Assembly (NCBI RefSeq): GCF_000003815.2
Contig: NC_049989.1
Coordinates: 18,134,684 to 18,198,683, forward strand
Length of the DNA stretch: 64,000 bases
Direction: 5' to 3'
Origin: Branchiostoma floridae
Taxonomy: Eukaryota; Chordata; Leptocardii; Amphioxiformes; Branchiostomatidae
The stretch's first letter is position 1. The number at the start of each line of letters is the position of its first letter. Made by a program: the position numbers and the translations under genes. Below, in pieces: positions 7,983 to 40,916 of this stretch. The notes beneath the pieces were generated by a model, which was not told the origin of the DNA, did not search any database, and saw only the letters and a program-made list of their open reading frames with translations.

Positions 7983-8073
7983 TATGATCTGAATCCTAAT
8001 TTTAGTGATTCATCCCCAATGAAAAGATGTAATATATAAAGTGTAAATGATGGGTATCACCTGTGATAATTTA

Positions 8074-9246: not shown

Positions 9247-9248
9247 TA

Positions 9249-12639: not shown

Positions 12640-12900
12640 CGAATTGTAGTGCAGTGGTTAGTGACCCTACCTCTGGAGTCTAGACCGAGAAGCTGTGAGT
12701 TTGAGTCCCGACTGTTGTCACTCACTATCATGCAGGCTACTGGAAAGGGTTGCAGTCCTTAGGACTGGATGATTGTTGTTAAACTGTGGTCTACTAGTCT
12801 AGTACATTCGTTGTGCTTGCCGAAAAGTCAGCCAGGGAAATTCTCCTGGTACAATGACCTGTAAATACTGTGTACAGTAATCTGTCTTCTTTGTCCTGAT
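12640..12900 (+). repeat. tRNA-derived SINE
   Basis: A box: TAGTGCAGTGGTTAGTGACC (12647-12666). B box-like: GAGTTTGAGTCCC about 40 bases downstream. This is the layout of a tRNA-derived pol III promoter. The body continues to roughly 12900 with no clear tail. Confidence 0.65.
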
Positions 12901-12945
12901 CAGTGGAGGAATAACTGGTTCAAGATCACTTTCAAATATAGGACA

Positions 12946-13042
12946 TGAACATTTTGGTCATTTGTCTCTTCAGGAACTACAATTGTAGCATTTTGTGGAC
13001 ATTTTGGTTCCTGAAAAGACAAATGACCAAAACATTTTTTAA
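12946..13042. repeat. Inverted repeat, ~30-bp arms
   Basis: The arms AACATTTTGGTCATTTGTC and its complement GACAAATGACCAAAACATT enclose a loop containing ACAATTGT. It could fold into a long hairpin, and is probably a MITE remnant. Confidence 0.6.
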
Positions 13043-13636
13043 CATTATATTCTGATCATTTTATGTCTGAAGGTTTGAAGGTCATGACATCTTGACTATG
13101 TTTTCATTCTGGTCTAGATGTATCTGATTTGTTTTCTACCCTGTGTTCTATATAAAGTAATGATAGGTTTATGAATAGTTGAGCAATCAACCTACACATT
13201 TTACTACATTGCATGGCAGGCTGGCTTTTGTCCATTCTTGTTATTGTTTAGTAGCCAGTGATATTAATTTCTCTAAAAAATAATTCTAGGTTTTATATCA
13301 AAATACATTTTGATCAATTTCATGTCTGGAAGATCAGATTCTTAATGCAGGCTTAAACATTGAGTTTTAGACTATTTAGTTTAAATTGGGTATTTAATGG
13401 GCTGTAAAATGGGTCACAGTTGAATACAGTAGTAGTAGTAGCATCTCTGGTCAGTCAGTTTGCCTTAGTAACAGGATCCATGGTTAAAGCATGGGGGTCC
13501 TTGTTCCCCTCTAAAGAAAAACGCTGCTAATGTAAGGTCCTAAAAGATCACTGGTAAAATGTTTGACTTGATGTTAAATGTTGGGAATGTTGTGCACCGT
13601 TATGTCTAAACTTTAACTTTTGTACGTCCTCTCCAG

Positions 13637-13719
13637 GTCTAGTTTCCACATATGGTGTAACACAGTAGAGGAGGATGTCATCCCCAGAGAAAGAAGAGTA
13701 CCTGGTCATTGAGAAAGGG
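13637..13719 (+). CDS. Gene 1 exon with start codon (first coding exon)
   Basis: The start codon is at 13675, giving MSSPEKEEYLVIEKG. An in-frame TAG at 13666-13668 lies just upstream, so translation cannot begin earlier in this exon. A pyrimidine-rich acceptor (GTCCTCTCCAG) ends at 13636, so a non-coding exon should precede it. The donor is GGG|GTGAGT, phase 0, and 15 codons are coded. The reading continues into the phase-0 exons at 16191, 18776, 19290, 21580 and 22225, which together make one acidic N-terminal leader before the giant exon. The peptide matches no family I know. The exon is supported by splice signals and frame only. Confidence 0.75.
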
Positions 13720-13845
13720 GTGAGTCATGTTTTCTTGTTAGTCCTTGATTCCATGAAATCAAAACAAAGTTTGCTGTATACAGATAAGGCCACTGCAAAC
13801 AAGCTGCAAAATGAGAAAATATATGCTGTAGATTAAAACGATACA

Positions 13846-14024
13846 ATGTTAGTTCACCTTTATCCGTGGGGTAACCTATATCTGTTGTGTTGCTAAACAG
13901 GGTATCCAGGGATATCAAGTCGACAGACTGAAGTTTCAAATTGTAATATTTTCAGAATATTGCAGTTTGAAACCACCATCTGTATACTTGATATCCCTAA
14001 ATACATTGTTCTTAAAAAGCGTTA
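13846..14024. mobile_element. TAACGCTAG-type MITE in intron 1, decayed copy
   Basis: TTAGTTCACCTTTATCCG, then GGGTAACCTATATCTG, near the left; GATATCAAGTCGACAG inside; a GCGTTA end at 14024. The right arm is truncated relative to the complete copy at 57921-58145. Confidence 0.7.
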
Positions 14025-14474
14025 GTAAAATGGTCAATTGAGTGAAGCCCTCCCAGGTAAAAAAAAGATGTGCTAGGACAATGATAGAAAATTTATGGTG
14101 GGCTATGTGTGACAGGCTATAACTTTTAACCGTGGAAAACAGTTCTTATATTTGTGAACTTGGTAGAATTTTTTTCATCATAACAAAAAGATAAAATGTA
14201 AGTTAAAAAAGAAGGAAAATACCCCATGTACAATCCTCTGGCACAGGTGGATTTCATTCGAGCTCCATTCATTGGTACCCAGTAATAGATCTATCACAGG
14301 TGGAATAAAAGACATCTCTCTCCATTTTAACCACATCATGAATGTTTGACACTGAGCAATGATAGGGCCATGGCAGAAGGAGGTCACAGTTGAGAAATAG
14401 ATCAGATAAAGAAAAATGATGACTTCCTTACCACACATTTTTTAGCCATCATCTCATGCATATCTTTCACATAC

Positions 14475-14662
14475 CTGTGAAATTTGCTTGTTCAGACGGA
14501 AAAATATTTCACTCCAGTCACGAAGATCTGAACTTCATGACGTGAAACTGATGCAAAGTATTTTCGTAAGCTAAAAATGACAGATTCTACGATGACAATC
14601 ATTGGCTCCAAATATTGAGTAGGACAGAAAACAAATTAAAACTGGAGACAGCACTAGTTAGC
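14475..14662. mobile_element. Dispersed ~215-bp repeat, copy 4 (intron 1)
   Basis: Shares GAAATTTGCTTGTTCAGA, the CTTCATGACGTGAAACTGATG block, TAAGCTAAAAATGACAGATT and the GGAGACAGCACT end with copies at 4256, 5163 and 7810. Confidence 0.6.
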
Positions 14663-15836
14663 ATATTTCATTGATAAAATCCTATGAAATGGCCAATACA
14701 TGATTGTATATCCTTCAAGAAGAACTTGGTTGATAACTATAAACTAAAACTAAAGGAGACATATATGATGGATCATTTTTATATGTATTTCTTTCTCGAC
14801 CCTACTTGGTTTGCAGCATAATTACTCCATTCTTCAATCTGCCTGCTAGAGTCCTCTAGGGTTCATTTTGACATGGAATAAAACAGAGGACAAAGATGAA
14901 AATAGAAATTTTCTCAGAAAGACTTGATGAGTACAGGAATGTATACATAGTGGAAGAATTGAGACATTTGTCTCTGTTTCCGTAGCCTTGTTGTCTCCAA
15001 AAAGATTAATTTCCCAAGCTTACAGGCCCCAGAGCATGTCGTCTGTTACTCAGGCCTAGGAAAAAAGTAGTTGTGTTTCCGGGAACCTGACCAACCCTAT
15101 TAGAAATCTTCTGTTTTTTTTGTCAGCTGTAGGCAAGGGAAATATTTTCAATCTGACATCTATGTAGTGAAATTCAAAGCAGAATTCTTGTATTTTGAAC
15201 GCTGTTAACAGATTAAGGCTTTGAACACATGTAAGAACTTGTAAAAATTGAACGTCTTTGTTAGATTTTATCCATATGTTTGTGCTTGTATCTATGTGGT
15301 TACAGTATGGCGTTGAAAATATCAGAGCCATGTATTTCAATTTTATATTCATTTGGTGAACTGTACTTGTTCACTTCATCCAAAATCTGAAAAACAAACA
15401 CAAAGAGAATCCCTACCTACCATTACCCTATTTTTTTCTGGACTGTAACCAGAAACACAAATTCTTTTCCCGAGGCCTTAGTACAACAATATATAGCTTG
15501 TGAGGAGGAAATCTATTGATCTAGACTACTCCTTTTAATCCCAGCAACAAATTAAATGTTCACCAGCTCTGCTGTGTGCTTCATTAGCTGACTCATGATG
15601 AGTCTCTGTGTGAAAAAAAAGGTGTCTCAATAAGTAGGTCTCATTTCCGGATTGAAGCTGGAAAAATGAGTCATCAAATTGCACCAACATTGATGGAGGT
15701 TGTAGACATCCAGGTAATGTTAATGAAATGTTCAATACAAAAATTTCTTAAGCAACTGGAAAAGTTTTGAAGCGTTTTTCATCAGTAACTTGAGTTATTA
15801 ACTTAATTAATTAATGATGTGGGCAGTCTTAAGCTG

Positions 15837-16148
15837 TAACGCTATTTCACCTTTATTCGCGGAGTGACCTATATCTGTTGTAGTTAAAAACAGGATCTTT
15901 GGGGATGCCATGTCGACGGACGGTGGTTTCAAGCTGCAATTTTTGATTTTGACCTTTATATTAACCATTAGCATTGATACATCTTCAGCCTAAGTTGTTT
16001 TTTTAAGATTCCAAAACATTTTGAAAATATTTTGAGAATATTGCAATTTTAAGCCCCGTCTATGGACCTTGCATAGGTAAATACCCTGTTTTTGATGATA
16101 TGGATATGGTCACACCCCCACACCCCTGATAAAGGTGAACTAGCGTTA
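15837..16148. mobile_element. TAACGCTAG-type MITE immediately upstream of gene 1 exon 2
   Basis: Left end TAACGCTATTTCACCTTTAT and right end GATAAAGGTGAACTAGCGTTA (split here: GATAAAGGTG, AACTAGCGTTA). The interior shares the GTCGACGGACGGTGG block. It ends only 42 bases before the exon acceptor at 16190, so it sits in the polypyrimidine/branch region of that intron. Confidence 0.75.
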
Positions 16149-16190
16149 AATCTTGAATGTGACCATTGTGACCTTTGACATTTTGTGCAG

Positions 16191-16271
16191 GCCATGGGCG
16201 ATGAGTCATCATCGAGGCTGGGGCAGCGTGTGGTTGGTGAACAGGTGGTTGTCAACGAGGATGGGTCCAGG
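16191..16271 (+). CDS. Gene 1 coding exon 2
   Basis: Acceptor TTTTGTGCAG|GCC and donor AGG|GTACGT enclose 81 bases, 27 codons with no stop, phase 0 on both sides. It encodes AMGDESSSRLGQRVVGEQ followed by VVVNEDGSR. The valine-rich VVGEQVVVNEDGSRTV reading across into exon 3 suggests a short beta-hairpin-like segment with alternating hydrophobic residues. Because the exon is symmetric (length a multiple of three, phase 0) it could be skipped without frame loss. Confidence 0.8.
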
Positions 16272-17221
16272 GTACGTGCAGAACTTGTGTTTCTCGCAAG
16301 CATGAAATTTATAGAATGTGTGAAGAAATTGTTTTAGTTCTTTGTCATGATAAGAACTATTGTTCGAGCTGGACAGCACAAATCTTCAACATCTTTCTTT
16401 CTCTATTCACAATTATGATACAACTCATTACATGGGTCAGCCTAAGTAGCTTGCGCTTGTAACGGCTGACTCACAAAAATGCAGACGGACATCCACAGAG
16501 TTCGTTCAATAAGCATTACAATAACAATACAATATAAAATAATCAATAACCATAAAATGTGTCTTACATCACCATAGCAAAGATTCTCCCTGTTTTCAAC
16601 ATTACTTACAGTACATGAATTCAATATAGGGGAAGTATTACAATGTTGAAAAATCTTTTTGAAAGTTACTTAGCCCATACAAGGATCCAGACGTGTTGTA
16701 AAATGTGACCATTCATTCTTAATGCTGAGACCCCATTTAACTCCTAGAAATCAAGTTGTAACTTTTTGAATAACCTAGTCAACAAACAAACAAACAAAAG
16801 TAAATGATAATAGATGAAAGTGCAAACACATTGTGCAGTTAACACAAGTTATATTTTGGAAAGAGGAATGATCATGAATGATGATAATCAGCTTTTTTGG
16901 TGCTGAGAAAGTTGGTAGACTGGGACATGTCCTTGGTGCTGAAAACGTGATCCTTTGGAAGTTCTTTTCCCAGACTGACTCAGGAGCACAAATTTGGTTT
17001 AAAAAAGCATGGATAGAGACAAATGTTTGGGCATAGACCCTGCAAATTTCCCCAAGGATTATCAATTGCTTTCTTCTTCGTCTTCTTCTCTTGACATTGG
17101 AGGAGTAACTCTGGAAGCCACTGAGATCTTCTTCCCTCTAGCATGTCCAAAAAATGTCTTTAGTCCAATAGTAAGAAGTGCCATCTTTACTTGGGTTGTT
17201 ATTATTTTGCTCATTCCACGT

Positions 17222-17304
17222 AGATAGACTCTTGCTTCAAACTGCAATATTTTCAAAATTTTTGTAAATTCCCCTTGGATAAAGGTACGTGTAAACTAGC
17301 GTTA
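17222..17304. mobile_element. TAACGCTAG-type MITE fragment (right end)
   Basis: Holds the TTCAAACTGCAATATTTTC block and ends GGATAAAGGTACGTG then AAACTAGCGTTA, matching the right half of the family. Confidence 0.55.
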
Positions 17305-17370
17305 CAGGCCCAGACCTGTAACATTCCCAAAACCTGTACTTGATTTTGATGGTACCTTTGAATACACAGA

Positions 17371-17842
17371 ACAGAATGTTGGCCAGTCTCCAAATGGACA
17401 CCTCTATTTGTTCCCTGCAAAGTTTTGGAACCTTATTACATCTGTTCCACTGACACATTAGTCTCCTGCAGCATCTGACCTAATTCTATATGATTATGAT
17501 GTTGTTACAATTTTTTAGTTGAGGACAAGAAATTTTCTCAACTTCTTGGGCATTTCACATTGAAATCATGTGTTTTTTTTTTCTGTTGGGTTTGACGTTA
17601 CATAAGATACAACACAGTGTATTCAGTATCACCAGAGGCCACAGGCTTCTTGTCAAACTGTTCAGATCCGGACAGATACGTTTTACTTGTAGTTGATGTT
17701 ACATGTAGATTCACAACCTAGGACAGAATGTTGGCCTGTTTCCAAATGGACACCTCTATTTGTTCCCTGCAAGCAAAGTTTTGGAACCTGATTACACTGT
17801 TCCACTGACATTAGTCTCCTGCTGCGTCTGGACCAGTCCTAT
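17371..17842. repeat. Direct repeat pair in intron 2
   Basis: Copy 1 (17371-17491) and copy 2 (17723-17842) share ACAGAATGTTGGCC, TCCAAATGGACACCTCTATT, TGTTCCCTGCAA and TTAGTCTCCTGC. They are separated by about 230 bases of unrelated sequence. No frame is conserved between them. Confidence 0.75.
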
Positions 17843-18084
17843 AACTCAGTCTCGTCTGGCTGAAATGAGGACCGGCCAGACACATTTTTCCTTCATGTCG
17901 ATGCTAGTTTAGATATGTACATCTCTGTTATACTGGCTGTAAGCCAAGGGCTTTGTATGGTTGCCTCTTTGTCATTGAGCAAGTGTGATGGAGGAACCCT
18001 TTGTGGTTAAGCCCAGGATTCACCCAGACTCTGTAGTTACTGTGTGACTATCATTGATCATGTACATGAATAATATCAATCATA

Positions 18085-18314
18085 GCCTGGGTGCTATACA
18101 ATTTATTTTACCAGTGTTCCCATATTTGCTTCCTCAAAAAAAAAAAAATACTCTGTTAAGTTTGCTATTGCTCCCATACTTGCTTCCTCACAAAAAATGC
18201 CATCTTATCTTATTTTACATTGCAGTTTATTGGGGCTCAAATACATGTTCCCTTGAAATGTTGCAAGGGAGCAAGCATGGGAGCCTTGGAAAACTAAATA
18301 GACAGCACCCAGGC
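18085..18314. mobile_element. TA-flanked MITE (TAGCCTGGGTGCT ends)
   Basis: Termini GCCTGGGTGCT and AGCACCCAGGC are exact inverted repeats flanked by TA at 18083-18084 and 18315-18316. Internal TTGCTTCCTCA is repeated twice and its complement-like GGGAGCAAGCATGGGAGC lies on the right. Confidence 0.7.
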
Positions 18315-18775
18315 TAATTGATTTGTTTTCAATGTTATAAAATATAATCATTTCTACTAGTATTAAAACCTCTGGGCTATATATACAACGCCATGCTTCC
18401 TCCTTGAAAGAATGGAATTACATTAACCTGAAGTTTTGTTCTTAAAGTCTAAAGTCTATATAAAAGTCTATATGGGCTGTAACCTAACCGAAGCATCTAT
18501 AATAATTGTTAGCATACCTTTTTACGATCCTTTTTCAGCCACCCTTTACGCTTTGTGGCACATAGATATAAACATTAATGTTGCTTGGCAGAAGTACATG
18601 TATTAGACACAATGATTGTGCATGATGTGTTTTTCGCATGGGTGTGGTTAGTGCAGGACATGCAATATTTTCACGACGTGTGTTTTTTTGCACATGTAAC
18701 GTTATGGCTTGTGATCATGAGTTTTGCACGATGTATTGTTTTTGCATGACGTGTGGTTTGCCCTCTCTCACACAG

Positions 18776-18823
18776 ACGGTCATAAGAACTGTGGAGGAGA
18801 CCTTTGAAGAGGAGGTGGAGGAG
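18776..18823 (+). CDS. Gene 1 coding exon 3
   Basis: Acceptor CTCTCACACAG|ACG and donor GAG|GTCAGT enclose 48 bases (16 codons, phase 0): TVIRTVEETFEEEVEE. This is strongly acidic and could be helical. It is one of four micro-exons of 48-111 bases, all of symmetric phase. No similarity is recognised. Confidence 0.75.
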
Positions 18824-19289
18824 GTCAGTGCTAACCTGTTCTGTGTGGGTTGATTGACATGCTAACCGTTAACCTAAGACAGCACATGTTAATGACATGG
18901 GAACAACGATGTTCAGAACTTCTATCAGGTTTTTGGAAGGGGTTTACACATGTTCAACAATTACACATAATCAAGGTCTCAATATGAAGGATTGATACTA
19001 GATATTGTCAGACTGAGTACTGCCAACAAAAATTATAGATTTTCTCTAATTTTGTTTAGAAGTTATAGTTGCAGTACTGGAAAATTCTATCCATATTTCC
19101 CCTATAGTATGAAACTGGTCACAAAGAAGGGTTTTGAATGAGGCACAAAATGTTCAGCTGCTGAAAAGTTGCCATCGCAAAACATGTGATAATATGACAG
19201 ATTGCTCAGTGGCTAAGCTTATTGACTGAATTTGTTACAATGTTGAATTCAGACAACTTCTCCTAAACTGTGTATGTTGTGCTTCACAG

Positions 19290-19340
19290 GAGTTTCACAG
19301 TAGTGCGTCATCTGCCACATCTACCGACAGCTCTCCAGCT
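19290..19340 (+). CDS. Gene 1 coding exon 4
   Basis: Acceptor TGTGCTTCACAG|GAG and donor GCT|GTAAGT enclose 51 bases (17 codons, phase 0): EFHSSASSATSTDSSPA. It is a serine/threonine-rich linker with several potential phosphosites. It is symmetric like its neighbours. Confidence 0.78.
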
Positions 19341-19375
19341 GTAAGTACTTCATTTATGGTTACAAATGGCCACAG

Positions 19376-19545
19376 ATGTATGAAGAATATGCACACAATC
19401 ATCTGCAGATGTTTGTTGATGCACACCATCAGCAGCTGCAGATCTGCTGCAGCTGTCTGCAGAATATGCACACAATCAGCTGCATATCCCTGCAGAATAT
19501 ACACAAAATCAGCTGCAGATGTATGCAGATCCAACACATTATGCT
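19376..19545. repeat. Minisatellite in intron 4
   Basis: Degenerate units of roughly 27-30 bp built on GCAGAATATGCACACAATCA and GCTGCAGAT recur about five times just after exon 4. The apparent frames here come from this repeat. Confidence 0.65.
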
Positions 19546-20124
19546 GCATGGTTCAGACACATACATGTACATACAATGTGTGGTAATAATTAGCACATTC
19601 ACACTTCACTGCACATATGAATTACGATTGTGATTCACCCCCCAAAAAATGCATATTACCTGCTACGATGACACCAACAAATACCCATCTGTGTTTGGAA
19701 TTGAAATTAGGAACTCTAGACCAATAAGCCAGGTCATGATTTCAACAGCACATGCACAAGGTGAAAGGTAAAGGCTCCTAACTTGTTAACAGATCTTGTC
19801 TATACATCATGTATGTCTCAAGGGCCTTCAACTTGACATATTACTCACAATGCATTATAACATGCATGCATAGTTCAAATTATGAACTACTGGTTACAAG
19901 TCATTATTCAGTAATTAGCGACCTCTTTGCACGTCTTGAAAGTACACAAGAAAACAATTTGTGTTCAATAGATATAAAAGGTTTAGACGTCTTTCATTCA
20001 TAAATAAGCAACTTTATTCCTCATCAAGTGAATCTAAAGCCGTAATGGTTGAACATCTGCAGAGATGAGTTCATGTAGTTTTGATAGGGAAGAGTAGCAT
20101 TTGTGCAAATTTGGTAACATAATG

Positions 20125-20370
20125 GGGATGTCCCTGTAGCTCAACTGGTAGTAGCCTCACAGTTGAGCTCCTGGTTCTTGTTATAGTTTGTCTTTCCGAA
20201 GGGACATAAAATGGGATTGAAGTGCCTCAAGCATGTTAATGGGGAAGGGCTAGCAACCCCTCCATGTGAAATACACCATGCTAATGGAACAGCAAGGAAA
20301 CTAATGCTACCCTATATAGCTATGTGCCACTATGGACTAAAAGGGTCCCAAGGAGTGATAATGTATTGAT
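20125..20370 (+). repeat. tRNA-derived SINE, degenerate
   Basis: A box-like CTGTAGCTCAACTGGTAGTAG at 20133-20153 (written in two parts: CTGTAGCTCAAC, TGGTAGTAG), then CTCCTGGTTCTTG in the B-box position. The body contains GGAAGGGCTAGCAACCCCTCC. The limits are approximate. Confidence 0.5.
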
Positions 20371-21579
20371 CTAATTGATGATAAGAATCCAAAATTTATG
20401 TAGTTTGTGGGATCTCTGGGGTCTACTTAGTCTGTGTAACGCAAACTCCACTGTCCAGGGCTGTAACTGGCCCCGGATGTTGGTCGGGCTGCTATAAGCG
20501 AGATTAAATCAGGCTAGGGTCTATTATGTTGCAGATAAAGCTTTATGATATTGACACTTTTTACAGATTTAATTAAAGCACTCTTTGGTCTTGTAAGACA
20601 CTTTTGTTGGATCTTCGTTCTGTAAGGTTTCACAGTAGCGTCACAAATTACGTTTTTTTAGGACCATGGTGTAGATACATAGTAATGTAATGCCTTGCGA
20701 TACTATATATTTAGTTATTCAGAATGTGATGTTTTGGTGTCCTACTGTTCTTCACTGAACCCAGATGTGACTTCTAACTATGTTTTATTCTGGTGGTGGT
20801 CTTGGTGTTGGCATCATCCTAAGGTATGCTGTCCATGGGTATAATACCGTACATTTTGTATTCATATGGTTTCACTTCAACACGGGGTGATGATTCAATA
20901 CTTTCACAGTTTAGTCCATAAGTTTCCTATAATGGATAAACTACACATTGAGGCATGTTGAATCATAATGTTGTCATGATCCCAGTATGCCAGACACACC
21001 CACTATTGTTACGTTATAACACAAACTCACTTAGATTTTTTTCTTTACATTCTGTACAGACTGCCAATTTGAAAATATTTCTTTAGCTGGGGATTAGTTC
21101 TAATAACAATGTAAAAAGAATACTGAACAGGATACCACAATCTCCGGAGTAGGACAAAATAGACAAAGCAAAAATGTCACTGTCTAGTGTGTCTATGTGT
21201 GTGGAAAAATTACTTTGGCAAAAACATTCAACTTTGAGATGGTATCTTAAATGCATTGCAAATTGCAAACAAAGCAGAAGCAGAACAATTGCATAGTACA
21301 CGAAGAATCAAAGGCATGCTTAGATACATTAAGGATCAAATAACAGCTGTTTCTACTGATAAGGTATCTTAAGTCTTGTGCAAGTATGGATAATGTCAGG
21401 TGTTGTTAACAGCATCAAACTCTTCCTTGAAAATACATTCAATCATCACTTATTATATAACTTATAACGTTAATCATTTTCTCCGTCATGTTAACTCATA
21501 CTAATCCTTCCATGTCCCTGTTCATACATTCCATTCCCCCCTTCTCACCACGTGTCATCCCTGGTCCCCACCCTCACAG

Positions 21580-21690
21580 ATCAGGGCACGGGGCGGGCCC
21601 ATGCGCATCTATATCAAGAAGGGCTTCCGACTCTTCGGCTCTCCTGATAGGGGAAAGCGCAAAATTAAACGCAAGGTCAAACGTACCAAG
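21580..21690 (+). CDS. Gene 1 coding exon 5 (basic)
   Basis: Acceptor CCCACCCTCACAG|ATC and donor AAG|GTACTT enclose 111 bases (37 codons, phase 0). The peptide starts IRARGGPMRIYIKKGFRLFG and ends SPDRGKRKIKRKVKRTK. It is strongly basic, in contrast to the acidic exons 2-3, and its tail (KRKIKRKVKRTK) resembles a nuclear-localisation or acidic-lipid-binding stretch; neither role is proven. It joins in frame to LRTESFTERYEGED at the start of the giant exon. Confidence 0.8.
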
Positions 21691-22224
21691 GTACTTTAAC
21701 ACCTTCGTGGACGTGGCTCTTCTTTCATTGTCTGGTGCACTGGTGGCTGATGCTGCCCTTTGTCGTTATCTTCAATCATTGCTTTGACATTGTAATCGGT
21801 GCACGTGGTCAAGGTTGGATTTTCGGTGGTTTAACTGCACTCTGTCCTGTCTTTTCCTCTTCTAATGCATCATCTATCCATCGATGTGTCTTGTGATAAA
21901 GTCTATACTTTCTGCCAGATTGTTAGAGACTTTAGGCTTAGTTGAACAGCATGGTAGAAACCTGTTAGCTTAATGTTGAATGCTTTGAATTATTCAATCT
22001 ATATTGTGAATTTACTTTGTTGTAAGAATGGATGCTTCCCTTTGTGGGCATTTAGGTTTTTGATGAAGCTTTTGCTCTGGAAGGTGAGCTGCTTCTAGAT
22101 AGTTATCAGGAATGTTGAAAGGGTGCTTTGTAGATGGTTATAGATACATCTGATGGCTAAAGCGGCTTTTAGAATATATTGTGTTTTTGACTGATAATCG
22201 TTTCCTCCCATGCCAATGTCACAG

Positions 22225-28200: not shown

Positions 28201-31200
28201 GCTGCTCAATACCGCGCTGCTGAAAATTACGAGTCAGTAGAGGAGGGCGCTACAGGAAAAGTGTCGCCCGTCTCCTTCGACTCTGTCAAGTATGGAAAGA
28301 TCGTCATGGAAAAGTCGAGGGCCAGTCTTGAGCAAATTAAGGCACAAAAAGCCAGGTATCACCAGGCCATAGTAAAAAATAAGTTCATCCAAGAGGGTCA
28401 TGCCACAGCTACTCCACCCCTACCAAACTTCGACAGTCCCGTATTTCAAGCTGTGAAGCAGAATCTACATCGGCATGAGACAAATTGGGAGAGGTCGGAG
28501 AAGCCACTGTACCTGCGGGTGCGGGAACAGGAGGCTAGGATGATTTTCGAACAAGAGGACGAACTTCCTCCCCTTACCTTCCACCAAAGTGTCCATGGAC
28601 AGGTGATGCTGAACATGTACCGGGCAAGCCACGAGGAGCTCGAACTAGAAATGCCTCGCTACCACCAGCCCATTCAGCGTCAAGTCCACGTTAATTACGA
28701 AGAGGTGGTGGAGGAAATACCAGTTGTCGACATGGAGGAGGTGGAATACGCACCAGTTGAACCGGCGTTTTTCAGGGCAGCACTGGATATGGTGGAGCCA
28801 GACATGGATTTGATTGAAGCAGAGCTAAAGAAAGCCAATTCCCATCCAGAGTCGTATGAAGATTTGCCAGGGTTTTCCACAGATAGGGCAAAAGCAGTGC
28901 CCCTGGAGAAAGCAGATGTGCGCAGTGCCGACCAAAGACTCCAGAGAAGCGAGAGTCCATCATACCTGAAGTATGTTCAAAACACAGCATACGTCCATGA
29001 ATCAGATGCAGACGACAACATATCAGTTGTGGAGTTTGACAGCACTCAACCTGAGCTCATACCAGCTGACAGGGTACAAACCATCTACATCAACTCTCCC
29101 CAAGTTGTCCCAGTTCCTAAGAAACCTGTTCACAAGGCTGAGGAAGTCAAATTGGACAAATTGAGGGAAACCAAGGACCTCAAGGTGCCAAAGGTGAAAC
29201 TCAACAAAGCCAAACCAAGCGTAGCCCTTGGACAACTCAACAAGGCCAGAGCAAGTACGACCAAGATAGAGGGACCCTTTCAACCAATGCAGATGCAGAA
29301 TGTAGAACCAGCAAGACAAATGTGCTCTGCACCTCCCGTAAATCGCGCTCCACGATTCAAGCTCAAAGAAAAAGTCATCGACCTCTCTCTTGAAGAAACA
29401 GATGAATTGCCTAAAATCCTTAAGAGGGCAGCCAAACTTGGCCTCATTCCAAAGCTGCCAAAGCAAGCTCTCAGCGCAGAGAAGATCCGGAGCTTGAAGA
29501 TGGATGTCAAGTTTGCTCAGGAGCTTCAGGAGGAACTTGCAAGTGACCATGCAAGTGACGTGAGTGAGCTGGACCTGGAAATGGCGGATCTTGGCTTTAT
29601 TGACCAAACAAGGTTCAACACAGTGGATGTCTTTGCAGCAGAGCTGCTTCATCTAAAACTCCCCAAGTTAGAAGTATATGAGGAAAGAAAAGACGAAGTC
29701 ATGTTCGAAGAGGCATTAGATCTGTCCCCGTTAGTCATGAAATCTGCTGACAAGAAGCCGATGCCTAAGGAACTGTTTCTGAATGTTACTGCAGAGAAAG
29801 TAGTTGAAGAGGATACAGAGGTAGCCATAGATTTGCCAGCAGTGCCTCAACCAGTGGACAGAGCCATGCGATTGACCATTGCTGAGGAACGGAAACACAA
29901 GGCTGCATTGACCGAAACTGGAAGATCACACCAGTCTCTCCACAAAGCCAGACACGGAGTCATTGAGGTCAAGGAACATGGGTACAAAAAGGTAGCACCA
30001 CTGGTGACTCAAGTGGCACACGTACGGAGCGAACCGGATGAAGTATTCCAACAGGCTCAAATCAACGAAATGGTGGAGATTTGGGTGCATGCAGCACCTC
30101 CGAAACTGCACATTGGTAAAGAAGGGACGGTGGATGTGGTGGAATATCACGCCAGTGATATTGAGCCATTTTTACCATCTTCCGCAAGTCAAAGCACAGA
30201 AGAGGTCAGGATGGAGGAGGCAAAAGCTACAAGATCTGTAGTCATGAATCAAGGAAGGGAAGGTGTAGAAAGTATGAAGGAGGAAGCAGTTCCGCTCGTG
30301 CCACCAATGCCTAAAAGACATACCCTGAAGTCAAGCACTGTGCCCACAGAATCCATGCAGACTGCAGAGGCAGGGCATGTAGAGACAGAGCTTGGTCTTC
30401 ACGGTGCCAGCGAGACCATCCTTGACATGATCAGCATGGAGGTCATGTCCGACCTATCCCCCCTCTCAACAGAGATGGCGCAGGGCTTCGACATCCCTCT
30501 GGAAGTGTACCAGAAAGTCACCAAGCAGGCACAGAAGCAGATGTTTGTGTACGTCCCCCCTCCAAAGTACGGGAAAGAAGGCAACATCCTAACTAAAGAG
30601 GAGGAAGTGAAAACTATTCCCAGTGTGTCAAGTGAAACTGGTAAGCAGAGCCTTGAGCCAGAGGAACATTGGCAGCAGGTCCTCCTGCAATGGGTGAAGA
30701 CTGAGATTCAGCCATACTATGCTGAGGAGATTGTTCTTGACACAAAACAGTTGTCTTCGCAGGAAATACCGCCCATTGCAAGGAGTGATTTGGCAAGTGT
30801 GGGCTCCATACCATCAGAAAGAATGGAAAAAGCACAGTCTCAACATATCAGAACACAACTGCATCCTCACTTTGCTGAAGAACATGTCATTGACGAAAGG
30901 CAAGTGTCTCCTGAAGTGATACCGCCGGGTCCAGGAAGAGATTCAGCACATGTTGGCTCCATACCTTCAGAAGCAATGGCAACAGCACAGTCTCAACATG
31001 TCAGCACCCAACTACATCCGCACTTTGCTCAAGAACACATCATTGACGAAAAGCAAGAGGAGTATGTCTACTTGTACACTGTTACCCCTCAACACACAAA
31101 GACGGCAGAATCAACTGAAGTGCCTGTCCTTCGTCTTCAGAAAGTCAGAGCAGATGAGTTCAGGTCCATGCTGCATCCTCATTTTGCTGAAGAGGGTAGC

Positions 31201-34200
31201 ATCGATACAAGGCATGAATATGTGTACTTTATTCCACCCGGTGCTCCTCAAGGAGCGGCAAGACTCATCAAGGTCCCATCAGCAAAGCTCAGTCAAGCAC
31301 AAGCAGACCTGGCACAAATACGTCAGCTTCCAAGAGAAGACACCATGCAAACTGTAGAGGAGCACGTCCACACTATTCCTGGAGTGCCAGCTTGGGAGAC
31401 TGGTAGGCAGAGCCTGGCGGCAGAGGAGCACTGGGAAAAGGCTCTTCTGCAGTTTGTGAAGACTGAGCTGCAACCTTACTATGCTGAGGAGATTGTTCTG
31501 GACACAAAGCATGAGTCTTCTTATGAAATACCACCCGTTGCAAGGGGCGATTTGGCAAGCGTCGGTGCCATACCTTCACATTCAATGGAAACGGCACAGT
31601 CCCAACACATCAGGACCCAACTGCATCCTCACTTTGCTCAAGAACAAGTGGTAGGAGAAAGGCAGTTGTCTGCTCAAGAAATCCCACCTTTAACTAGAGG
31701 CGATTCAGCAAATGTTGGTTCAATTCCTTCAGAAGCAATGGAAACTGCACAGTCCCAGCATTTCAGGACGCAGCTGCATCCTCACTTTGCTCAAGAACAA
31801 GTGGTTGGCACGAGGCAGTTGTCTGCTCAAGAAATTCCTCCCTTAACTAGAGGTGATTCAGCAAATGTTGGTTCGATACCTTCAGAAGCAATGGCAACAG
31901 CGCAGTCACAGCATTTAAGGACTCAATTGCATCCGTACTTTGGCCAAGAACAAGTTATTAATGAAAAGCAACAGTATGTCTACTTGTATACCGTTGACCC
32001 CCAACACACCACAACAGCAGAATCTTCCGAAGTGCCCGTTCTTCGTCTTCATAAAATCAGAGCAGAGGAGTTTCGGTCCATGCTACAAGCTGAGGAGGGA
32101 AGCATGGATACGAGGCATGAATATGTGTACTTTATCCCTCCGGGTGCTCCTAAAGAGGCAGCAAGAATCATTCAGGTTCCTTCGGCAAAGCTCAGCCAAG
32201 CACAAATAGACAGGGCTCAAACAGAGCTGCGCCCACACTATGGCAGGGAGTCTAGCGTACTGGAAGAGCCAAGGGTGGGTGTGACGGAATTTGATGGACC
32301 GAGGACTGATGTAGCAAGAGGGGAAGCTCTCCCTCACGAGCACTACAGAAATGTGGTGCCTGCACCACAAACCCAGACCTGGGTTCACGTGCCCCCACCT
32401 AAAATGAGACACGCGATGGACAGCAGCATACAGACCAGGGATGAGGTCGTGTACACCATTCCACCCATTCCCATGCCTGACCACAAAGTTAGGATGGTAC
32501 CGTTGGAAAGGGCACAACAGGAAAGGGCCTTGAGGCAGGTCATTCCCACACAAACTCGCGAGATCCGCATGGAAATACCCGAAGAGACAGTGCATGGCAT
32601 GCCCACAGTGGTAAATGAACAGTCTGCAAGACAGCAACGTGTACAATCGGAAAGGTATCAGAAGGTGGAACCGCCAAGAACACAGACTTGGATCAAAGTC
32701 GAGCCGCCCAAGATGGTAGCCGGTCATGAGGGATCCATGTCGGATGTGGTGGCTGAGGTGGTATCAGCCGTTGCCCCTATTCCCACGCAAGCTGCGAGCG
32801 AGGGCATCGTACCCGCTGAAGTCATGGAAAAGGTGCATGCAGCACAGCTGAAAACGCAGCAAATGCCCAGCGAAGGCTCCTTGCGCGAACAGATTGAAAT
32901 CATATCGACCATTCCACCTCTGTCTTCCAATGCCGCAAAGGAGTCCTTAACACCAGCCGGGGTCTTCCGCCAGATCCATGCTCAGCATGTGCAGAGTCAC
33001 AAACTGCATGCGGGCCAGGAGACCGTCTTCAGGGAAAACCTTGAGATCCAAAGGGAAGTCCCGCCCCTGATGCCAAAAACCACCATGTGGCGTCTGCTCC
33101 CGCAGGATAAGACGCCCAAACTGCACAGGCAGCAACATGACTCCCATCACGCGTATTCAGCAACTGAAAGCCATATGTCAAAATCAAGGCTCGAGTCTGT
33201 AACTGAACTACCCGACGTCAGGCCTAAAGTAGCAAGAGAGGTGCTAACCCATGAGGAGATCCACCAGGCTATTAGCAGGATGCAAAGATCCTCCAGATCA
33301 AGAGACCCTGCATGTGAGATCCAAGAGGTCGTTGCGCAGCTGGTAGAAAATTCGGACGGATCGGTGGCCTTCATAGAAGGCGAAAACCTGCCGTCAATGC
33401 CAGACTGTCCTTTCTGTGATGTACAAGAGGGCATGATACATTTCGGTCCATCGTACGAGCTCAAAAAGCTCCAGACCACGCAGGTGTTTCAAGTGGGCGA
33501 TGGGCCGCAGCTGAGGAACATATATGTACGACAAGTGCAGGATGCACGCGGCAAGGCCCCACTCGAGCAAACAGGACGCCTTTCACCTACACAGCGACGG
33601 GTAGCGTCCACTGGAACCGTGATTTCTGACGAGTATCAGAGGGCAGATATCGATACCCTGTACAGTAACTGGGTTCCAGCAGAGCTACAGGTCGCAGGGG
33701 AACTGGAATCCCTGATGCAGCAGGGGATAATCAGATACAACCCCTTGCATTCAACTGTGGAAGAGGAGGAAGGAGATGTGTACGATTACGGTGACGTCTT
33801 CCAGATGAAGCAGAAAAGTGGCCGCAGGAGGGCGCAAAGAGCGGGAGCAGCTGTCGGAAATATTCCTAATGTTGGGTATCCCACCAAGCAGTGGACCTCA
33901 GCTAGGAATATGACAAGGGAACAGATAGAACGAGAGGGCGACGAAAGTCTTGACAGCGAGTTGATCATGGAGCTGACATCAGGAGGTCTTCATCAGGAGA
34001 AAATTGTCCAGAAGGACGGGTGGACGTACATCTACATCCCAGGTCCACCGGAGTCTCCAATAATGCAAAGGCCTCGTACCACCACAAAGATCTCCTACAG
34101 GGAGGACAAGCCCCCGTTTGCCTTTGACTTCAGTAGGTTGATGCACTGGACTATCGGCCGGAGAAACGAGGTGGAGAAGAAAGCGAGGGTGCCAGAAGAG

Positions 34201-36045
34201 CCGCACTACATCCCCTTTGACTTCTCAAGGGTTGCAACCTGGACAGTGCACGAGTATCAGCCGGGGTCCAACACCCCCGTAGAGAAGACGTACATCAGCG
34301 CTGCCCTGCCTGTGCAGGTTCGCAACACTTACTTCGTGAAGGGCAGTAATGCTAGCCAAGAGGACGCAGTGCGGCAATCACCCAGGGTAACGGTCCCCCA
34401 AGAAGTCCGGTCAGCACCCCAAGAAGTCCGGTCAGCACCCCAAGAAGTCCGGTCAGCACCCCAAGTAGCCAGGTCAGTACCGCAAGAAACTATGGATTGG
34501 ACTCAGGCAAAGTCTGTAGCTCCTCAAGCACCCAGGATAATGCCTCAAGAAATCACAGACTGGACTAAGGCAAGCAGGCCAGAGATGACCAAGGCAAGCA
34601 GGCCTGAAAGGAAAGACTTTGACTTCAGTCGAGTGCAAGATTGGACAGTCATAAAGAAGGAGACAGTCGGCGGAAACTCTGCCGTCGGACCAGACGAGAT
34701 GCGAATATCGTACCTCGAAGACGGGAAGTTGAAGCAGAGGTATTACCGACGACCTCATTTGTCCAGAGGATCATCAGTATTGGTCGGTGAACATCCCCCG
34801 GATCTTTCCGACTTTAGATTCCTCAGAGCAGACGAGATTCCTCTTCCAGAGCAAGATGGAAGAGTCCAACATACCAGTGCTATCCTGCCAGGCGAGATGT
34901 ACCTCACCTATGTCGAAAATGGCGAGGTCAAAAAGCTGTACATGTCAAAAACTGGGCAAAGCATGCCTGGAGAAGTTGTTGATGCCACCTCACGACAGGC
35001 ATACTTCCAGCCCGGTTCTCGACAGTCAAGTGAGGAGGACAATGAGAGAGCTACCTCCATCTCTGGTATCTCTGGTGTGGGCAGGCCAGCAATGCAGTTC
35101 CCTTCAACGCATTACGAAAGGGAAGGCTCAGGTGCCAAGCCTCCATCCCCTACGGATGACCTGGACACACCAAAGACACTGGAGATGACGTCAGGAGGAA
35201 GACACGAACCTTCCGTCAGACCAGACATCCAATCCATCCCACAAGACATCCAGTGGACCCACGCTAACGGGACCCATGAGGTCGTGCCTTTACACTCGGA
35301 GGATCGCAGGCCCTCCCAGGTGATCGTGAAGTCCGGCAGCAGGCCATCCACACCTGCGGAGTCAGTGGGCAGCAGGCGTTCCGACCGGGTCATCCACTAC
35401 AAGTACGACAACGGGCGAAGCAGCGATGACGTTAGTTTGGTTGTTGACGGTTCCAGGCCTAGCTCACAGTCAGATAGCAGCACAGGTGCCCCGATTTACG
35501 CGACATCCAGCCACGCCCGACCCAAGTCTCCAACTCCAGACAGCATGGCACGTCAGCCTCCTCGTCCTGTCTTCCTTCCTCCTCCACCTTCAGGACCATC
35601 TCCGTCCTCCCCTGTTGCTCCTCCACGCAGGAGACGGTCAAGTGCAAGTAGCTCCGGTAGCAATCCATATTCAAACTTGCATCCTCCCCTCAGTCCTAAG
35701 AAAACACCGCCGACTTCAAACTCTCGACCACCAGAGCCAATGGACACGTCAGGGCCAGCAGTGAGTGGTCGTTACCATAATGGCCATCCCCAACGAGACT
35801 ATTCGCAAGATCATGAACAACCGCTTACATTCGCAGACCACGACATCCGGGAGGATGACTCAGGAAAGCCGAAAAAGGTCGGTAAACTGAAGAAGAGTCG
35901 GTTCTTTCCATTCCTGAAGGGTGATAAGAAAGGAAAGAAGACGAAACACGCCAATGGATTTGCACCTGTAGGAGTGGTGGAACCCACACAAGAAAACAGA
36001 GAAAGGCTAGAGGTAGAACATAGCTCACACTTGTACCTATGGTGA
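22225..36045 (+). CDS. Gene 1 giant terminal exon: repeat protein of unknown family
   Basis: One uninterrupted exon of 13,821 bases (4,606 codons plus stop) begins after the acceptor CCAATGTCACAG and ends at TGA 36043-36045; with the five small exons the protein is about 4,718 residues. Order: a basic, partly coiled-coil N-terminus with a CPYC motif (22462-22473) and a KLKKLKKRKRRR run; array 1 of about 36 units of ~50 residues (about 23250-28700); a less regular middle; array 2 of ~50-residue IPP units (about 30600-33270); a CPFC motif (33406-33417); FDFSR..WT and PGEM..TYVE motifs (34110-34960); a Pro/Ser-rich tail; a basic-aromatic KKSRFFPFLKGDKKGKK near the end. No signal peptide, membrane segment or enzyme motif is seen, so a cytoplasmic scaffold or structural role is inferred. 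AHNAK has a similar exon plan but unrelated repeats. An in-frame donor-like GAG|GTAGAA at 36013 could trim the last ten residues. Confidence 0.95.
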   Translation, partial: LRTESFTERYEGEDADSGIENATPAKSSRVTRKDSIKEFVTKKMVENHPTDEPPRPQQHPSPIIGRTGKLYKRKRTREPCPYCEYTRQVLTMMGHDMDETEKLVLNVGKVKKCLIQEMANIEERQRILRERIVYEEQHRRQRRLQEQYQKLKKLKKRKRRRHMKPVEQPSPKKAVAIAMRIGPEQTETENKQVGLYRLYKPPKPMAARPSRLEEGHPIHHELDVSKPHKPKCRSHHHTDLYPEDDGRYHCHGDVRIHRGDMYYTIPSKDLLFRSYAQEREVDPVTIEKIMDKIPQIRKQQGDHVIVLDEDILTFGNWEEVKSEVIIPHHVLRMDEAPAMPMEREGRVSPITLEMGTWDEVLDDVFHIAIDKEQVSRQPRYLQGQNKSAWASVEETDEVPRVRYQAAQIDVVEQEVFKPQTEEIEVEEAEYLNGVLRSIYTNLEQVNGEFPGYCDSCAHAKLHDVMQEVFEAEMSQVVFEEPKYLEGEEGKTHVKLEEAKEELPPLPFHMLAYGQAVMDMYRPNAKKVRSESPRYLQSVEDLEFLHEEDYDEDRDRIELERLMGEQVKQVLWQHSTGGLRSSSPEYLKAIVSEGYVTEEGEDGRISPTPSLQSLVIGETLMDIFRAEAGAVETEDPRYHQGIVLREYAAEEEIDGTVRQERYDKAAVELLRQESFKSKSGVRRSEHARYFAKENHSDLPEESTGKFSPVSFDNALLGQVFVDQWKADLQTIEAETARYHQGIVHHEIISGESIDGKVSPPPNPQNVVVGQALMDIFKANVEEVPLERPRYHATENELQHESTGKISPLSFENPDFGEVFMKKWKAIMKQEEVRVPRYHHGILSDEYIGDEWIDGRISPRPTAENLLVAQVLMETFKATSEQVRAEIPRYMAKEDQTSHDEESTGKVSPVSFESAMLGEIFMERWKTNIDLVKASSPRYHHAVIGDEYVGREEADGRLSPQPTFKNLLSAQVLMETFRATSDKVRTEVPQHFAREGQTSSEDSTGNISPVSFENTTFGEICMEKVKAIANEEKAQLPRYHHAFISDEFVGEEEIDGRIPPRRQTENLLAAQVLMETFRATSQHVKAEVPRYNVREGYTSDREESTGTISPVSFESVALGEVFMEKWKTNLEEVKAQTPRYHHGYVMDDFVGEEGIDGRISPLPNVEKLLTAQVLLEAHKASSEKVRPEAARYFATEGQTSEDSTGKISPVSFENADFGDIVMKKFKAVTKEQKTQVPRYLSAYVSDEFVGVEEIDGRISPRPTLDNLMTAQVLMETFKATSEQVREELPRYTATEGQLSQRQESTGRVSPVSFERAELGEIFMELWKTNIDLVKASSPRYHQAILSDEYVGEEKADGRLSPIPTLQNLFAAQTLMETFRATSDQVRAEVPCFFATEGQIFRDPESAGKMSPVSFESVTFDHVFMEEWKTNIDRVKAQKPRYHQAITSNEFMHREEVDGRISPHPTFKNLVTAQVLMETFRAASKEVREEVPRHIALEGEVSLKDESTGKVSPVSFERAAVGEILMHKWKAQLDLVRGSSPRYLHAILSDEYVGEEKVDGRLSPEPSYDNLVAAQTLMETFKATTKHIRAEAPRHYATEGRTSQPEESTGRISPFTLEGAMMGEIMLQKMSADLSVIESWKPRYLQGVVYNEYMRSEVIDGRLSPGPSPEKLVLGEAFMETFKATANEVREEVPRHWAREGHASLLEEQTGRVSPVAFEAASLGHIFMEKWKANLEKIQTEEARFHQAMVQEQLTWEERTEGEIPPNPNLQNLVLGQALMDTFRATEHHVKAQAPQYRATENYESLKEGSTGRISPLSYKSGVFGEIFLDKWKASLEQVVAEAPRFHQAIVKDQFIPEHRIGGNLSRAPSFRKAEVDRVAMDTHRANAMRVMAQLPQYQATVNHTSLEEGTTGKVSPVSFEKVTFGEILMDRWKANLEQVLTESPRYNQAIMKDQYIPEDQTDGQLSRAPSLRKAAVDRIAVDTFRANAEKVRAQAAQYRAAENYESVEEGATGKVSPVSFDSVKYGKIVMEKSRASLEQIKAQKARYHQAIVKNKFIQEGHATATPPLPNFDSPVFQAVKQNLHRHETNWERSEKPLYLRVREQEARMIFEQEDELPPLTFHQSVHGQVMLNMYRASHEELELEMPRYHQPIQRQVHVNYEEVVEEIPVVDMEEVEYAPVEPAFFRAALDMVEPDMDLIEAELKKANSHPESYEDLPGFSTDRAKAVPLEKADVRSADQRLQRSESPSYLKYVQNTAYVHESDADDNISVVEFDSTQPELIPADRVQTIYINSPQVVPVPKKPVHKAEEVKLDKLRETKDLKVPKVKLNKAKPSVALGQLNKARASTTKIEGPFQPMQMQNVEPARQMCSAPPVNRAPRFKLKEKVIDLSLEETDELPKILKRAAKLGLIPKLPKQALSAEKIRSLKMDVKFAQELQEELASDHASDVSELDLEMADLGFIDQTRFNTVDVFAAELLHLKLPKLEVYEERKDEVMFEEALDLSPLVMKSADKKPMPKELFLNVTAEKVVEEDTEVAIDLPAVPQPVDRAMRLTIAEERKHKAALTETGRSHQSLHKARHGVIEVKEHGYKKVAPLVTQVAHVRSEPDEVFQQAQINEMVEIWVHAAPPKLHIGKEGTVDVVEYHASDIEPFLPSSASQSTEEVRMEEAKATRSVVMNQGREGVESMKEEAVPLVPPMPKRHTLKSSTVPTESMQTAEAGHVETELGLHGASETILDMISMEVMSDLSPLSTEMAQGFDIPLEVYQKVTKQAQKQMFVYVPPPKYGKEGNILTKEEEVKTIPSVSSETGKQSLEPEEHWQQVLLQWVKTEIQPYYAEEIVLDTKQLSSQEIPPIARSDLASVGSIPSERMEKAQSQHIRTQLHPHFAEEHVIDERQVSPEVIPPGPGRDSAHVGSIPSEAMATAQSQHVSTQLHPHFAQEHIIDEKQEEYVYLYTVTPQHTKTAESTEVPVLRLQKVRADEFRSMLHPHFAEEGSIDTRHEYVYFIPPGAPQGAARLIKVPSAKLSQAQADLAQIRQLPREDTMQTVEEHVHTIPGVPAWETGRQSLAAEEHWEKALLQFVKTELQPYYAEEIVLDTKHESSYEIPPVARGDLASVGAIPSHSMETAQSQHIRTQLHPHFAQEQVVGERQLSAQEIPPLTRGDSANVGSIPSEAMETAQSQHFRTQLHPHFAQEQVVGTRQLSAQEIPPLTRGDSANVGSIPSEAMATAQSQHLRTQLHPYFGQEQVINEKQQYVYLYTVDPQHTTTAESSEVPVLRLHKIRAEEFRSMLQAEEGSMDTRHEYVYFIPPGAPKEAARIIQVPSAKLSQAQIDRAQTELRPHYGRESSVLEEPRVGVTEFDGPRTDVARGEALPHEHYRNVVPAPQTQTWVHVPPPKMRHAMDSSIQTRDEVVYTIPPIPMPDHKVRMVPLERAQQERALRQVIPTQTREIRMEIPEETVHGMPTVVNEQSARQQRVQSERYQKVEPPRTQTWIKVEPPKMVAGHEGSMSDVVAEVVSAVAPIPTQAASEGIVPAEVMEKVHAAQLKTQQMPSEGSLREQIEIISTIPPLSSNAAKESLTPAGVFRQIHAQHVQSHKLHAGQETVFRENLEIQREVPPLMPKTTMWRLLPQDKTPKLHRQQHDSHHAYSATESHMSKSRLESVTELPDVRPKVAREVLTHEEIHQAISRMQRSSRSRDPACEIQEVVAQLVENSDGSVAFIEGENLPSMPDCPFCDVQEGMIHFGPSYELKKLQTTQVFQVGDGPQLRNIYVRQVQDARGKAPLEQTGRLSPTQRRVASTGTVISDEYQRADIDTLYSNWVPAELQVAGELESLMQQGIIRYNPLHSTVEEEEGDVYDYGDVFQMKQKSGRRRAQRAGAAVGNIPNVGYPTKQWTSARNMTREQIEREGDESLDSELIMELTSGGLHQEKIVQKDGWTYIYIPGPPESPIMQRPRTTTKISYREDKPPFAFDFSRLMHWTIGRRNEVEKKARVPEEPHYIPFDFSRVATWTVHEYQPGSNTPVEKTYISAALPVQVRNTYFVKGSNASQEDAVRQSPRVTVPQEVRSAPQEVRSAPQEVRSAPQVARSVPQETMDWTQAKSVAPQAPRIMPQEITDWTKASRPEMTKASRPERKDFDFSRVQDWTVIKKETVGGNSAVGPDEMRISYLEDGKLKQRYYRRPHLSRGSSVLVGEHPPDLSDFRFLRADEIPLPEQDGRVQHTSAILPGEMYLTYVENGEVKKLYMSKTGQSMPGEVVDATSRQAYFQPGSRQSSEEDNERATSISGISGVGRPAMQFPSTHYEREGSGAKPPSPTDDLDTPKTLEMTSGGRHEPSVRPDIQSIPQDIQWTHANGTHEVVPLHSEDRRPSQVIVKSGSRPSTPAESVGSRRSDRVIHYKYDNGRSSDDVSLVVDGSRPSSQSDSSTGAPIYATSSHARPKSPTPDSMARQPPRPVFLPPPPSGPSPSSPVAPPRRRRSSASSSGSNPYSNLHPPLSPKKTPPTSNSRPPEPMDTSGPAVSGRYHNGHPQRDYSQDHEQPLTFADHDIREDDSGKPKKVGKLKKSRFFPFLKGDKKGKKTKHANGFAPVGVVEPTQENRERLEVEHSSHLYLW
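24331..28407 (+). repeat. Array 1: alternating A/B ~50-residue coding repeats
   Basis: Twenty-seven consecutive units alternate strictly between two types. A units (about 51 residues) read G[KR][VI]SPVSFE....GEIFMEKWK..., then PRYH, then DEYVGEE.D. B units (about 50) read GR[IL]SP.PT..NLL.AQVLMETF and then RATS..VRAEVPRY, ATEG, EST. A and B share the G-x-[IV]-S-P start, a phenylalanine-methionine core and PRY, so they are themselves homologous. The dimer is about 101 residues (303 bp). More degenerate units extend the array to about 23250 and 28700. Confidence 0.92.
30604..32240 (+). repeat. Array 2: block-duplicated IPP coding repeats
   Basis: Units of ~50 residues contain EIPP...., SIPSEAM.TAQSQH and RTQLHPHFA.E. 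A multi-unit block (TIP..ETG[KR]QSL, EEHW, EIPP units, YLYTV, YFIPPGAP, LSQAQ) occurs twice, at about 30604-31318 and 31366-32240. The second block has an additional EIPPLTRGD unit; the two such units start at 31678 and 31831, exactly 153 bp apart, and are nearly identical in nucleotide sequence. Confidence 0.9.
34396..34479 (+). repeat. 21-bp coding tandem repeat (PQEVRSA x4)
   Basis: Four 21-bp units encode PQEVRSA three times and then PQVARSV. The first three are identical at the nucleotide level, indicating recent expansion inside the giant exon, directly before the third FDFSR..WT motif. Confidence 0.9.
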
Positions 36046-40906: not shown

Positions 40907-40916
40907 GATAAAAATA
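40907..40916 (+). promoter_or_regulatory. TATA-like box of gene 2
   Basis: GATAAAAATA lies about 185 bases before the start codon at 41094. A start site about 30 bases downstream would give a 5' leader of about 150 bases. This is a weak call from one motif. Confidence 0.3.

Follow-up and report, generated by a model that had tools for sequence, protein, structure and literature searches.

Among the closest described systems are the giant ankyrins, scaffold genes with one enormous exon such as those of Drosophila Ank2-XL, Ciona ankyrin (13.3 kb) and vertebrate AnkG (7.8 kb) (available text of PMC5135030 and PMC5422562). According to the available text of PMC5135030, the giant exons of bilaterian ankyrins have a mean length of 8,103 bp, with 13,344 bp in Ciona, and a subset of them carries repeat arrays which are recognisable only between very close relatives. 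Drosophila Ank2-XL contains 93 repeats of 76 aa and has been postulated to act as a molecular spacer, only a fraction of the repeats being needed for axon diameter (same text). For B. floridae, it reports two homologous long ankyrin exons, and no death domain was found. A second comparison is offered by Futsch/MAP1B; for Futsch, 60 repeats are described and a spacer function is proposed (available text of PMC6842214). The Xin proteins, in turn, are defined by the repeat GDV(K/Q/R/S)XX(R/K/T)WLFET(Q/R/K/T)PLD, and the available text of PMC2478706 states that no Xin homologue was found in B. floridae.

Here, we present the analysis of a predicted giant repeat protein encoded in a 64,000-nucleotide stretch of the B. 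floridae genome, hereafter called the window. As in the giant ankyrins, its coding sequence is dominated by one enormous exon, and as in a subset of these its repeats were matched only in very close relatives in our searches. It is a conserved, uncharacterized amphioxus gene which is already present in public annotation, and its units form a new repeat family within a known architectural class.

Results

Gene structure

Three orthologous proteins were mapped to the window to obtain the exon structure; all exons of the gene lie on the plus strand and are in phase 0. The coding part of exon 1 (13675-13719) has a GT donor and encodes MSSPEKEEYLVIEKG, which starts at the initiator ATG and matches the N-terminus of the database model P0002 at 100%; an in-frame TAG is located immediately upstream of this ATG. 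Exon 2 (16191-16271, 27 aa), exon 3 (E3; 18776-18823, 16 aa, TVIRTVEETFEEEVEE), exon 4 (E4; 19290-19340, 17 aa) and exon 5 (E5; 21580-21690, 37 aa) follow, the last being strongly basic with 16 K/R and one D/E. The initial annotation had described five phase-0 micro-exons spliced in frame into the giant exon, and the mapping bears this out, with GT donors on all five and AG acceptors on the last four. Their inclusion differs across five database models: E3 is missing from P0002, E4 from P0009, and E5 from all models except P0002.

The giant exon (22225-36012) has a length of 13,788 bp and comprises 4,596 codons free of stops. Inclusion of all exons yields a predicted protein of 4,718 residues (4,681 without E5, 4,702 without E3), and about 4,600 of these ~4,700 aa come from the single 13.8-kb exon, in agreement with the size and architecture first proposed. 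The 3′-end had to be revised. It had been placed at 36045, but the coding exon stops at 36012 with a donor (CTAGAG followed by intronic gtagaa); the stop codon at 36043-36045 lies downstream of this donor and thus the earlier 3′-end differs from the database models. The orthologue-type C-terminus is encoded by a separate, previously overlooked short last exon (36540-36572), which reads RWGYGNTLDR followed by the stop TGA. Of the full-length orthologous models, two terminate in LERWGYGN(T/S)LDR and the third in LERLGYGA. A polybasic and aromatic tail, GKPKKVGKLKKSRFFPFLKGDKKGKKTK, is encoded at 35863-35946 (plus strand). Upstream of the gene, a run of 100 N at 10422-10521 is probably an assembly gap and could hide sequence.

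Conservation of the reading frame

From stop to stop, the frame spans 22198-36045 (plus strand) with 4,615 codons. At the base composition of the window, 4,596 open codons would arise by chance with a probability of about 10^-126, and each of the other five frames of the giant exon contains 130-234 stops; the frame is therefore not a product of chance.

A protein search of 5.77 billion sequences, in which 3,119 candidates were scored, yielded three hits with E of at most 1. They are all from Branchiostoma, named only “uncharacterized”, and have lengths of 4,732, 4,906 and 4,593 aa. The three full-length predicted orthologues, compared as predicted proteins and not as DNA, align over 4,680, 4,486 and 4,326 residues, with identities of 97.8, 86.5 and 84.7%. 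Across the window protein and these three, 12 of the 13 cysteines are conserved, and in the first repeat array (array 1, see below) most blocks of 100 residues are 0.70-0.93 identical, a few near indels falling to 0.41-0.63. Conserved blocks also lie at residues 401-700 and 3801-4100. Several length differences have the size of a repeat dimer (101 aa in P0003, 99 aa in P0004) or are multiples of 51 aa (51 aa, one unit, in P0002; 255 aa, five units, in P0004), and such differences are consistent with a reading frame that is being kept. Other indels are not unit multiples; examples are those of 144 and 308 aa in the second array, a region of uncertain alignment, and small indels of 7-14 aa.

The divergence between repeat units points in the same direction. 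Codon positions were compared in 24 of the 36 array 1 units (13 A, 11 B), excluding the seven units before residue 814, the last two, and a further three, divergent in sequence, close to the end; ten unit pairs of the second array were also compared. Third codon positions differ most (0.616 and 0.620, about 62%) and the first two less (0.388/0.251 and 0.337/0.214, 21-39%). Synonymous change between array 1 units is near saturation, and the median dN/dS of 0.32 (A) and 0.31 (B) refers only to pairs with dS below 1.5, which number 8 among the 78 A pairs and 7 among the 55 B pairs. Constraint on the reading frame, which had been claimed from the sequence of the repeats, is thus supported by three full-length predicted orthologues at the protein level and by the third-position bias of unit divergence.

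Repeat arrays

Array 1 (23254-28704, plus strand; residues 456-2272) consists of 36 units of ~50 aa, mostly arranged as A/B dimers of ~101 aa. Array 2 (30670-32259, plus strand; residues ~2928-3457) is built from 51-aa units, shows weaker traces up to residue ~3727 and includes a 153-bp tandem repeat at 31570-31955. Array 1 accounts for 40% of the giant exon and both arrays together for 51-57%, the share varying with the end point chosen for array 2. The repeats described initially were recovered in two ways. In self-comparison, residues 1001-2250 align best at an offset of 101 aa and residues 2801-3450 at one of 51 aa. With a loose threshold, a hidden Markov model (HMM) of the unit lists 40 matches, including an unbroken run of 36 between residues 456 and 2272. 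When the threshold is stricter, the counts are 38 for the window protein, 38 for P0002, 39 for P0003 and 35 for P0004, a few of these matches lying outside array 1.

The consensus of unit A is TGk.SPvSFe.a..GeifmekwKa.l..vka..pRYhqaiv.de..gee and that of unit B is DGRiSP.P...NL..aQvLMETFkAts..Vr.E.Pry.A. Both follow one layout, with a GR[I/V]SP-like start, a possible helix of 18-20 residues and then P-R-Y. A loosely defined P-R-Y-like motif is present in 35 of the 36 units (500 shuffles: mean 3.8, maximum 10), and a hydrophobic-Ser-Pro start in 25 of 36 (maximum of 1 in shuffles). Array 1 contains 36 Ser/Thr-Pro, where its composition would predict 11.9. Among the Ser-Pro sites, 24 of 25 are conserved, with no clear excess over the other array 1 serines (81 of 96).

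Between the window and B. lanceolatum (P0003), the best match of a unit is its positional counterpart for 37 of 38 HMM units; in the comparison with P0004, one-to-one order breaks down for five units among the first 36. From these protein comparisons, array 1 is probably older than these Branchiostoma species, its units being mostly conserved one by one. A shared origin of the two arrays was suggested by an iterated HMM, which ran through both, but found no support from HMMs built from single arrays. The array 2 HMM gives four matches on array 1 (best 3.3 bits) and two on the reversed array, while 100 shuffles yield a mean of 0.5 and a maximum of two matches (best 3.6 bits). The array 1 HMM gives two matches with negative bits on residues 2273-3800 (shuffles: mean 0.78, maximum 3).

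Searches for relatives and known families

A second protein search, whose query of 1,480 residues was taken from the N-terminal portion of the giant exon, scored 5,509 candidates and listed two partial Branchiostoma models at E <=10. Neither of the two protein searches revealed a relative of the giant protein outside Branchiostoma, although distant ones may be missed since the search depends on five-residue words in common and restricts sequence length. The gene had been put forward as the best candidate for an undescribed protein. Undescribed it is: no paper was found for the gene names, and none which pairs “amphioxus” with “giant exon”. It is not unannotated, as NCBI LOC144874402 and its relatives are already predicted as “uncharacterized protein”.

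The Pfam search of the whole giant frame gave no match up to E = 1. Seven pieces of the frame, searched up to E = 10, gave ten matches, all under the cut-offs; the best, PYRIN (E = 0.0016), scored 19 bits where the cut-off is 22.9 and was dropped. Sequences from the PDB matched the giant frame twice (E = 0.096 and 0.97) and the repeat profile once (E = 1.2), none of them significantly, and Rfam reported nothing at gathering level. With no Pfam cut-off reached and no significant PDB sequence match, the view that the repeats belong to no nameable family holds for the libraries used. In particular, no Pfam domain or repeat of AHNAK, plakin, titin or mucin reaches its cut-off in the giant frame, a test made with Pfam models rather than by protein-to-protein comparison.

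Sequence properties and predicted structure

Array 1 is acidic, with 211 K/R and 304 D/E and a net charge of -93 over 1,817 residues, and the last 60 residues of the protein are basic (17 K/R vs 6 D/E). In a Kyte-Doolittle scan, a measure of hydropathy only and not a signal-peptide predictor, no window of 19 residues reaches a mean of 1.6 (highest 1.01), and hence the protein shows no hydrophobic stretch of the kind that would point to a signal peptide or a transmembrane segment.

Structure prediction had been envisaged for one A/B dimer and was run with AlphaFold2 on four units, from a shallow alignment of 13 rows taken from the window. The model shows one helix per unit, the remainder being unstructured, at a low mean pLDDT of 41.5 and with 155 of 200 residues below 50. 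Residues 180-619, modelled from a shallow alignment of six rows, have a mean pLDDT of 37.9, with 358 of 440 residues below 50. Within this region, a long charged helix is predicted after a CxxC motif at residues 209-274 (22513-22710, plus strand), with block pLDDT values of 73-84 over residues 230-269. An amphipathic helix in each unit was tested and is not supported (moment over an 18-residue segment 0.222, shuffles 0.216); in sub-windows of the unit, helical and strand-like periods are both above shuffles in places and below in others. A coiled coil in the N-terminal predicted helix is likewise not supported: its heptad pattern is no better than shuffled sequence, 973 of 2000 shuffles reaching the same value, and dimerisation is therefore unsupported.

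CxxC motifs are encoded on the plus strand at 22462-22473 (residues 192-195), 23581-23592 (565-568) and 33406-33417 (3840-3843), and a conserved Cys/His-rich stretch, CRSHHHTDLYPEDDGRYHC, at 22918-22974 (plus strand, residues 344-362). A metal site at these positions is possible.

The adjacent gene and the remaining window

Downstream on the plus strand lies an orthologue of LOC144874401 with two coding exons (41094-42437 and, including the stop, 43482-44504), which together encode 788 aa. It has its own start and stop as well as many RRES-type sites, and it differs from the giant protein in that no repeat arrays are seen. A search up to E = 10, in which the candidates scored were capped and numbered 7,993, gave three proteins, all from Branchiostoma. 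Both genes have a C-terminal module in common, which is encoded at 34603-34956 (plus strand) in the giant exon, is partly doubled and contains FDFSRVQDWTV, PDEM/PGEM and [SR]Y[LV]E[DN]G. Three comparisons of the two proteins over this module scored 9.5, 16.8 and 14.3 bits, against shuffle maxima of 1.5 bits for the first (n = 100) and 1.1 bits for the third (n = 30), the second being run without shuffles. LOC144874401 and LOC144874402 have probably been kept together as a pair, since their numbers are consecutive and they apparently share a contig in two gene sets.

Elsewhere in the window, an open pol frame of 1,388 codons at 50978-55141 (minus strand) belongs to an LTR-type retrotransposon. 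Pfam identifies reverse transcriptase, RNase H and integrase domains in it, together with weak aspartyl protease matches; a direct-repeat search of 46500-60000 found no terminal repeats of at least 80 nt flanking the frame. A read-through frame at 62041-62250 (plus strand) has a weak sub-cut-off match to CYYR1 (E = 0.021) and is possibly part of another gene. Two-copy direct repeats are present at 48165-48451 (86 nt, 94%) and at 50038-50285 (107 nt, 86%), the latter within a 115-bp tandem. The Pfam scan of 84 of the 347 listed neighbour frames gave one weak match, Furin-like_2 (E = 0.0059).

Discussion

The architecture of the gene raises the question of a known giant-exon family. It is conceivable, but quite improbable, that the giant exon belongs to an amphioxus ankyrin gene or to a descendant broken away from one, with upstream ankyrin exons splicing into the micro-exons and the exon 1 ATG marking a transcript start from an internal promoter. 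The published exon lengths, the arrays confined to very close relatives and the two long exons reported for B. floridae ankyrin speak for it; the exon found here, with 13,788 bp and matches within Branchiostoma only, is of the ankyrin-type length of thousands of bases, and its phase-0 micro-exons would allow such splicing. Against it stands the Pfam analysis of the plus strand of the window, the sequence left of the window lying outside this scope: the 24 ankyrin repeats and the ZU5-ZU5-UPA series typical of ankyrins were not found, and neither was a death domain. This analysis covered three-frame read-through of 1-13601, 13601-22226, 36010-41093, 42438-43482 and 44505-64000, run without a positive control and such that short split exons could escape; Pfam likewise matched no ankyrin domain in the giant frame, the first 181 residues or the adjacent gene. 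Moreover, exon 1 carries its in-frame stop before the ATG, all five database models start at this same separate ATG, and no ankyrin fusion is listed among candidates of up to 8,076 aa, a set in which P0002 represents nine member sequences, covered in part. Because the plus strand of the window shows no ankyrin domain, we do not file the gene as an ankyrin. Futsch and MAP1B resemble the giant protein in their great length and in dozens of repeats in the middle of the protein, a likeness by description and not by repeat length or sequence, and they differ in that no Pfam family reaches its cut-off here. Presuming that Pfam holds models for the MAP1 end domains, these gave no match at E <=1 in the frame and none at the cut-off in its pieces. 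As to Xin, seven units combine G-[D/E]-[V/I] with a tryptophan in position 8, but LFET, PLD and W[LMV]F are absent from the whole giant protein, the unit measures ~50 aa and Pfam gives no match; a Xin repeat protein was rejected on the missing GDVxxxxWLFETxPLD pattern.

Other explanations concern what the arrays do. If they were a passive entropic spacer, length and charge would matter, sequence would not, and the ends would do the binding; the acidic array 1 with basic ends, the low predicted order and the variable repeat number would suit this. We nevertheless regard it as unlikely, as much of array 1 is identical in four orthologues and the P-R-Y-like motif is kept in nearly every unit, both beyond what a pure spacer would need. 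Rather unlikely, too, is a molecular ruler in register with a filament, each unit or dimer matching one group of filament subunits, like nebulin on actin. Its attractions are the A/B alternation, the position-by-position conservation between the window and B. lanceolatum and unit starts spaced 48-52 aa from residue 713 onward, one false motif match aside. A strict ruler, however, would badly tolerate the one-dimer difference between species in array 1 and the larger ones in array 2; the one-to-one order of units is lost in places in P0004, and Pfam matches no filament-binding repeat. That the open frame is a gene-prediction artefact or a relic lacking a functional product would gain from the orthologues being predictions themselves, yet it is extremely improbable given the negligible chance of such a frame, the length of these orthologues and a codon-position pattern of purifying selection.

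Our tentative interpretation, which we hold at somewhat less than even confidence, is that the gene encodes a long, mostly flexible and multivalent cytoplasmic scaffold or spacer, a repeat protein without recognised domains; the cytoplasmic location is one that we infer. This role is proposed because of the long flexible chain, the dozens of conserved short units and the basic ends, of which the N-terminal one, exon 5, is part of a single database model out of five. It would resemble the spacer function put forward for the repeats of Drosophila Ank2-XL and of Futsch. Each unit of ~50 residues would supply one docking site for a partner, and ~36 such sites would line up along a single chain. 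The evenly spaced Ser-Pro sites would allow proline-directed kinases to tune binding, and the basic ends would anchor the chain at a membrane or at an acidic filament surface.

A further step, which we consider possible if doubtful, is that amphioxus has made a free-standing family of giant scaffolds. The GRISP-helix-PRY unit would then be a new docking module for a polymer or the cortex, present in ~36 copies per exon, and the adjacent gene would code for a short partner that has its C-terminal module in common with the giant protein. If true, this family would be a stand-alone counterpart of the ankyrin giant exons and of Futsch elsewhere. At ~50 aa, the unit is short enough for direct binding tests. 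A predicted protein of ~4,700 residues, open and conserved largely unit by unit in Branchiostoma and with no other relatives detected, would clearly exemplify a chordate lineage that has built a giant scaffold of its own, and giant-exon repeat scaffolds would seem to arise outside ankyrin and MAP1 too.
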